The notes beneath the pieces were generated by a model. That model did not search any database and was not told the origin of the DNA. It worked only from the letters and a program-made list of their open reading frames with translations. From NCBI GenBank assembly GCA_017795025.1, contig CP051243.1, positions 992,001 to 1,056,000 on the forward strand: a stretch of 64,000 nucleotides of DNA, written 5' to 3'. The stretch is from Flavobacteriales bacterium (GTDB lineage Bacteria > Bacteroidota > Bacteroidia > Flavobacteriales > Schleiferiaceae). Every line of letters begins with the position of its first letter. Position 1 is the stretch's first letter. This document shows, in pieces, positions 17,410 to 17,868 of the stretch. Both the position numbers and the translations under genes were made by a program.

Positions 17410-17868
17410 ATGGAAACAGTAAATCTCGCTTTAATTTTGGCCTTTGTAGGTTTCGGTATTTTGATTGCACTGGCCGGAACCGGCAGTATTATGGGTACCG
17501 CTGCGGGAGCCATGGCCACCGTAGGCGCTGTTAAAAAACGCCCTGATGCCTTTGGGTCTTTTATCGTATTAAGTGCATTACCTGGTACACAAGGGCTTTA
17601 CGGCTTTGCCGGCTTTTTCATTCTTCAAGAATTTATTGGTCCCGAAATCACCTTATTGCAAGGCGCCGGAATATTAGGTGGTGGAATTGCCTTAGGACTT
17701 GCCGGCTTATTTTCTGGGATTTACCAAGGTCGGGTATGCGCCAGTGGTATCGATGCTATTGGTAGCGGAAATGACGTTTTTGGTCGGACCCTAATATTGG
17801 CCGTATTCCCTGAACTATACGCTATTATTGCCTTTGCTGCGCTGTTCTTAATTCGAGGAATTCTATAA
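17410..17868 (+). CDS. atpK: V-type ATPase subunit K (proteolipid), with Na+-binding residues
   Basis: This 152-residue proteolipid has four membrane helices in two hairpins and forms the rotor ring. Only the second hairpin carries the ion carboxylate, E135 in '[10 protein letters not shown]'. The positions known as Na+ ligands in Enterococcus hirae NtpK (L61, T64, Q65, Q110, E139) line up, with a constant offset of four, with L57, T60 and Q61 in '[11 protein letters not shown]', Q106 in '[12 protein letters not shown]' and E135. This predicts Na+ rather than H+ coupling; the transport direction is not determined by sequence. The gene is followed 2 nt later by the second Usp gene. Confidence 0.95.

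Follow-up and report, generated by a model that had tools for sequence, protein, structure and literature searches.

Whether a bacterial V/A-type rotary ATPase moves sodium ions or protons is a question raised by the short gene atpK, located at 17410..17868 on the forward strand of a 64,000-nucleotide stretch of DNA (the window) from contig CP051243.1 of a Flavobacteriales bacterium. This gene encodes a proteolipid of 152 amino acids made of two fused hairpins, as recognized from its open reading frame, from two stretches matching PF00137 in Pfam, from alignment to the Enterococcus hirae proteolipid NtpK, and from a structural model. A sequence-only reading had reported that the product retains every Na+-ligand position of NtpK and had concluded that this "flavobacterial-type" V-ATPase transports Na+ rather than H+. 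The reading preferred here is that the genes at 10523-17868 would encode a compact bacterial V/A-type rotary ATPase, of the order E-C(DUF2764)-A-B-D-I-K, whose K ring binds and passes Na+; judged from sequence, this is assigned a probability of about 0.82.

In a phmmer comparison with PDB sequences, NtpK (2bl2_A) was the top match of K, with an E-value of 1.6e-19. Residues 4-148 of K align with chain residues 8-152 of 2bl2_A with zero gaps and a constant offset of four, and a residue check found all five ligand pairs to be identical, namely L57=L61, T60=T64, Q61=Q65, Q106=Q110, and E135=E139. The second-shell residue Y64 is likewise identical to NtpK Y68. The claim that the five Na+-ligand positions are preserved at an offset of four was thus borne out, with no gap falling between any of them. 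Overall identity is 33% (48/145 aligned positions), a level at which the chance of finding identity at all of five randomly drawn aligned positions is about 0.003, and at all of six about 0.001. K consists of two hairpins and has just one carboxylate for ion binding, E135 in hairpin 2, while the matching place in hairpin 1 is occupied by Gly59 within the motif LPGT.

The AlphaFold2 model of K, built from 25 aligned K sequences chosen among those at hand, contains four helices and has a pLDDT of 96.1. In structural comparison it comes closest to 2bl2_A (Z 20.2, rmsd 2.4, 152 residues), and eukaryotic c subunits of the proton type score equally well (Z 20.1). The structure-based comparison that had been suggested as a check therefore supports a common fold with NtpK, and because Na+ and H+ rings tie, the fold is uninformative on the ion and was rejected as a test of ion choice.

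The discrimination between the two types can be traced, in sequence comparisons, to individual residues. In the proton-coupled Thermus ring, alignment showed that L, T, Q, and E are kept, with Q65 replaced by Leu and Y68 by Phe. Because this H+ ring keeps the other four ligands, Q61 is the ligand that carries the Na+/H+ contrast, and "five of five" was rejected as a decisive count. The Na+ motif rule dates from 2008 (Mulkidjanian; PMC2359735), when every predicted Na+ type was described as having a polar residue at position 65, and every predicted H+ type as having Leu, Ile, or Val there; the polar Q61 of K agrees with this published rule. According to a paper on Halomonas elongata (PMC9006882), the Na+ ATPases of Pyrococcus furiosus and Amphibacillus xylanus carry the E. 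hirae residue set, and H+-coupled V-types have M61, I64, I65, I110, and Y68. Since Tyr also occurs at this last position in H+-coupled V-ATPases (PMC9006882), Y64 was rejected as an independent discriminator, although Thermus has Phe there.

By these criteria, each position that separates the two types, and Q61 most of all, would class K with the Na+ enzymes. Na+ coupling is very probably correct as the best prediction for this V/A-ATPase, given that the sequence favors Na+ and that nothing was found for H+. The part of the earlier claim that names Na+ as the transported ion is therefore upheld as a prediction, while its count of five ligands out of five gave too much weight to four residues that Thermus also keeps. 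Ion calls of this kind are predictions only, as transport is not demonstrable from sequence, and a warning case is provided by one N-type ring of a different subclass, which was measured to be H+-specific (PMC5376962).

Conservation across relatives was followed in two overlapping collections. Three genome surveys yielded a K match in 9 of 88 genomes of the own family, 10 of 392 of the phylum, and 9 of 241 of the order of genome G136. After the removal of repeats, two relics, one different V/A-ATPase (G391, with the order A-B-E-D-I-K), and two apparently spurious hits (a frame of 112 aa in G349 and G466, lying antisense to an intact response-regulator gene in G349), 20 intact K genes remained. 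The full set LTQYQE is present in 18 of these 20, the departures being LTHFQE in G348 and LSQYQE in G424. In a peptide-pattern scan, 80 named loci were kept out of 276, and 78 of them carry LTQYQE, with one MTQYQE and one LSQYQE; two of the six query patterns contain Q106 or E135, so these counts are biased at those sites. The two collections are not independent, as ten of the 20 survey genes sit on contigs equal in length to contigs of named loci. Within the genus, dN of K is 0.015-0.042 over five pairs, and dS is 1.7-2.7 in four pairs and undefined in the fifth, synonymous change being saturated; K is under strong purifying selection.

The label "flavobacterial-type" proved misleading, as an intact K copy is present in only 8/88 genomes of the own family and the operon type extends to other lineages, including loci titled Cytophagales, Bacteroidales, Omnitrophota, Bdellovibrionales/Oligoflexia, Spirochaetia, and Cloacimonetes. 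A tree of the A subunit was constructed from 64 rows, each with an A-subunit match above 600 bits and a length of 500 aa or more; its bootstrap had not settled, and it was used for broad placement only. In this tree, the window falls in a group of 22 with Cytophagales, Flammeovirgaceae, and Cyclobacteriaceae titles, others, and three Flavobacteriaceae, and the other 42 rows, lying across a 100/99 branch, are mostly Bacteroidales-titled, together with some Cytophagales-type rows and other phyla.

The genome, a single 3.44-Mb contig, contains additional ion machinery. Its own F-type c subunit has Ile in TM1 where Na+ rings have Gln, and Gly-Ile after the Glu, a pattern by which the F-ATPase would be of the H+ type. 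Additionally, six adjacent nqr genes, A to F, lie at 3055-8978 of the sequence L111, each scoring over the NCBIfam curated cut-off, and this complete Na+-NQR operon indicates that the cell is equipped with a respiratory Na+ pump too.

Within the window, nine genes follow one another head to tail on the forward strand with gaps of -8 to +6 bases, in the order Usp, E, DUF2764, A, B, D, I, K, Usp. The gene atpE (10523..11113), for the peripheral-stalk subunit E, was recognized by NCBIfam V-type E models, which it matches weakly and below their cut-offs. It is followed by the gene of a DUF2764 protein (PF10962) of 275 aa (11106..11933), assigned as subunit C/d (AC39 fold) from the fold of its model. 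Pfam and NCBIfam identified the next three genes as atpA (11926..13689), for the catalytic subunit A of 587 aa with the P-loop GAFGTGKT, atpB (13686..15008), for the non-catalytic subunit B of 440 aa without a GKT, and atpD (15011..15601), for the central-stalk subunit D. The a-type stator subunit of 601 aa is encoded by atpI (15598..17403), identified by Pfam, NCBIfam, and alignment to NtpI (8wci; E 7.9e-22). Its R514 and R572 correspond to NtpI R573 and R629, arginines that are essential in that subunit; the corresponding positions were obtained by counting, and the window residues were checked. Scans for promoters and terminators returned no more than in shuffled sequence, and no tRNA was found in the 64 kb.

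The PF01990 profile of subunit F, which matched 6/14 control genomes, picked up nothing in this genome at E<=0.001. Because of this missing match, the assembly probably differs from that of the E. hirae enzyme.

The evidence gathered so far permits the competing explanations to be weighed. Na+-type rotors are able to carry H+ when Na+ is absent (PMC2359735), which lends some weight to two of them. One is that the V-ATPase is coupled to protons and that its Na+ ligands are simply an ancestral inheritance, part of which (L, T, Q, and E) the Thermus ring also preserves. This explanation appears improbable, as K retains Q61 at the position that is aliphatic in predicted H+ types (PMC2359735) and Leu in Thermus, and as Q61, Y64, Q106, and E135 are invariant in 81 aligned relatives (the 80 named loci, with their bias at Q106 and E135, and L012), with L57 and T60 each kept in 80/81; moreover, the genome already has a predicted proton-type F-ATPase. 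The other is an ion-promiscuous ring, which would carry Na+ where the medium resembles seawater and H+ where little Na+ is available, so that in marine or saline surroundings it would physiologically be a Na+ enzyme. The names of many of the nearest relatives are those of marine or saline lineages, from which their habitat is inferred, and promiscuity is a serious possibility whose chances fall a little below even; it overlaps with the main Na+ reading rather than excluding it, and in high Na+ it offers no true alternative to it.

K relics do exist in two other genomes (G002 and G484), so the operon could in principle be decaying or inactive, with the Na+ motif as a relic. Such decay is very hard to reconcile with seven subunit genes that are all intact and closely spaced, with the presence of the P-loop, and with ligand residues that are conserved within the genus against third codon positions just 45-50% conserved, and it is considered highly improbable.

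The DUF2764 gene occupies the place after atpE. The protein was aligned in a set of 50 sequences, comprising the window protein and 49 of 59 candidate open reading frames, the ten left out being truncated, mis-started, or close to rows already included. The AlphaFold2 model obtained from this set has a pLDDT of 90.4 and a pTM of 0.87. When the model was compared by VIA-align, all 17 chains at Z>=8 were C/d subunits (17/17; Z 8.8-13.8, rmsd 4.7-5.5), with the C subunit of Thermus (1v9m, 1r5z) as the top fold match. Only C/d chains reached Z>=5, the next, unrelated chain standing at Z 4.6, and this gap matters more than the Z values themselves, as Z below about 13 can arise by chance for helical bundles. 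Foldseek placed V-ATPase C or d subunits at ranks 1-6 of 159, the best with an E-value of 6e-3 and a TM of 0.48 and none at E<=0.001; the probability was 1.00 at ranks 1-3 and fell to 0.30 at rank 6.

At the level of sequence profiles, PF01992 (AC39) was matched at E<=1 by 28/50 of the DUF2764 homologues, with a best E-value of 3.4e-9 and matches ranging from weak to clear, the window protein not being among them. The same profile had no match in the own genome at E<=0.001 and matched 7/14 control genomes. Against PDB sequences, the DUF2764 protein gave no credible match, with three hits at E 0.47 or worse. On the grounds of the predicted fold and of the 28/50 homologues matching PF01992, DUF2764 very probably supplies the C/d subunit of this compact V/A-ATPase operon type. 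In the available text of a paper on Bacteroides fragilis (PMC10197588), a conserved DUF2764 protein is described with no role given, and no C/d role was found in the accessible literature under the name "DUF2764". As far as that literature under that one name goes, the assignment as subunit C is new, and it would remove an "unknown" gene from the Bacteroides operon.

In the proposed mechanism, one Na+ would be bound per K subunit by E135 (TM4), Q106 (TM3), the side chains of T60 and Q61, and the backbone of L57 (TM2), with Y64 beneath. Na+ would enter a half-channel of subunit I beside R514/R572, be bound at E135/Q106/T60/Q61/L57 after its release from the arginine region, and then ride round on the ring. 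The DUF2764 protein would form the socket between the central stalk and the K ring, and rotation of the ring would be coupled through D and this socket to A3B3. The Na+ specificity, as well as the use of the enzyme together with the Na+ gradient made by NQR, is inferred. With a Na+ gradient supplied by NQR, the enzyme may operate in either direction, as ATP-driven Na+ export, known from E. hirae, or as Na+-driven ATP synthesis, proposed for B. fragilis; in vitro, the E. hirae enzyme itself is capable of both, at a Na+/ATP ratio of 3.2 (PMC12018189).

The run of nine genes is bracketed by two genes for Usp-domain proteins, the first (9720..10523) overlapping atpE by 1 base and the last (17871..18797) beginning 2 bases after atpK, both on the forward strand. 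Neighboring loci were sorted by K score into genus, near (more than 200 bits), and far loci, with the near locus L019 falling in the other group of the A-subunit tree. An upstream Usp gene is present in 4/4 genus loci and in 14/15 near loci with enough flank (18/19 together), two of the 14 near frames being weak matches located 185 and 360 bases away. A downstream Usp gene is present in 5/5 genus and 11/20 near loci. In far loci, phmmer searches with the window Usp proteins at E<1e-6, by which a diverged Usp could be missed, detected none upstream (0/29) or downstream (0/46). The 29 upstream loci include many Bacteroidales, with B. fragilis itself not among them.

The ATP-binding motif G2xG9xG[ST] is absent from both window Usp proteins and from the listed Usp proteins of the genus, and it is present in 11/12 downstream Usp frames of near relatives, the twelfth being a fragment at a contig end. 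Because these Usp proteins lack the motif, a simple ATP-sensor explanation is weak for this genus. A more speculative idea, which on balance is doubtful, is that of a stripped-down Na+ V-ATPase, with a divergent C subunit (DUF2764) as socket and without the usual F, whose assembly or activity is tuned by Usp proteins in a group of Bacteroidota, thereby tying sodium export or ATP synthesis to the stress state of the cell. In this genus, where the run opens and closes with a Usp gene, the enzyme would also be tied to the Trk K+ uptake next door.

The K+ uptake gene trkH (18799..20256) and the gene of the K+ uptake regulator trkA (20259..21629) lie on the reverse strand, convergent with the operon. 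They stand beside the operon in 5/5 genus loci and, among loci whose downstream flank spans 4.5 kb or more, in 0/16 near and 0/36 far ones. A V-ATPase-Trk link as a general rule was therefore rejected (5/5 genus loci versus 0/52 others). The E. hirae ntp operon carries a K+ transporter gene of the TrkH superfamily, ntpJ, at its end, and the convergent trkH/trkA pair of this genus is reminiscent of that gene.

The enzyme can be compared with several known systems. It shares with the E. hirae V-ATPase (NtpK 2bl2, NtpI 8wci) the five ligands and Y68 with their spacing, a K of two hairpins bearing one carboxylate, the two arginines of NtpI, and a nearby K+ uptake gene of the TrkH superfamily. It differs in that K is only 33% identical, the assigned C is a DUF2764 protein, PF01990 detects no F in the genome, the order is E-C-A-B-D-I-K, Usp genes bracket the run, and trk is convergent rather than part of the operon. 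The ring of the Thermus thermophilus V/A-ATPase (K/L ring, 6qum) shares L, T, Q, and E, whereas its subunit is a single hairpin with Leu/Phe for Q65/Y68 and is proton-coupled (PMC9006882).

A further known system is that of B. fragilis, a gut anaerobe. Its V-type ATPase is reported to have complete Na+ ligands and occurs alongside an H+ F-ATPase and NQR, the authors inferring Na+ coupling (PMC10197588; journal version PMC10790697), and its compact operon likewise has DUF2764 second. In deoxycholate, mutants of this V-ATPase had some of the most extreme fitness defects (PMC10197588). In the ProAD survey, one F- plus one A-ATPase was found in 890 genera, and pairs of an H+ with a Na+ enzyme in 1,137 of 1,388 genera with multiple ATPases (PMC11738941). 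Compared with that survey and with the motif study of Mulkidjanian (PMC2359735), the present locus is one member of the pattern that they describe. The inference of Na+ coupling is already in print for B. fragilis (PMC10197588), and the arrangement is fairly common and no new kind of machine. With this locus, the known pairing of a predicted H+ F-ATPase with a predicted Na+ V/A-ATPase and NQR gains a further well-supported example, and the parts worth following are the DUF2764 and Usp genes.

Several observations were made on K genes in other genomes. In G348, the operon E-DUF2764-A-B-D-I-K is intact, and its K (L110, 10052-10510) has His and Phe at the positions of Q65 and Y68. LTQYQE, as here, and LTHFQE, as in G348, thus provide natural variants for comparing which positions decide the ion. 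In G002, K (L116, 9110-9640) is broken and has Gln at the position of the Glu, with no other operon gene found in the 19 kb examined, and in G484, only the C-terminal half of K is present (L114, 8261-8515), with no other operon gene found in 16 kb; these relics suggest that the V-ATPase was lost in those lineages. The same-order genome G391 carries its A-B-E-D-I-K operon at 2858-10024 of L113, with a K that has SQ..Y in TM2, Gln in TM3, and Glu in TM4, and it possibly represents another Na+-type V/A-ATPase that was acquired separately.
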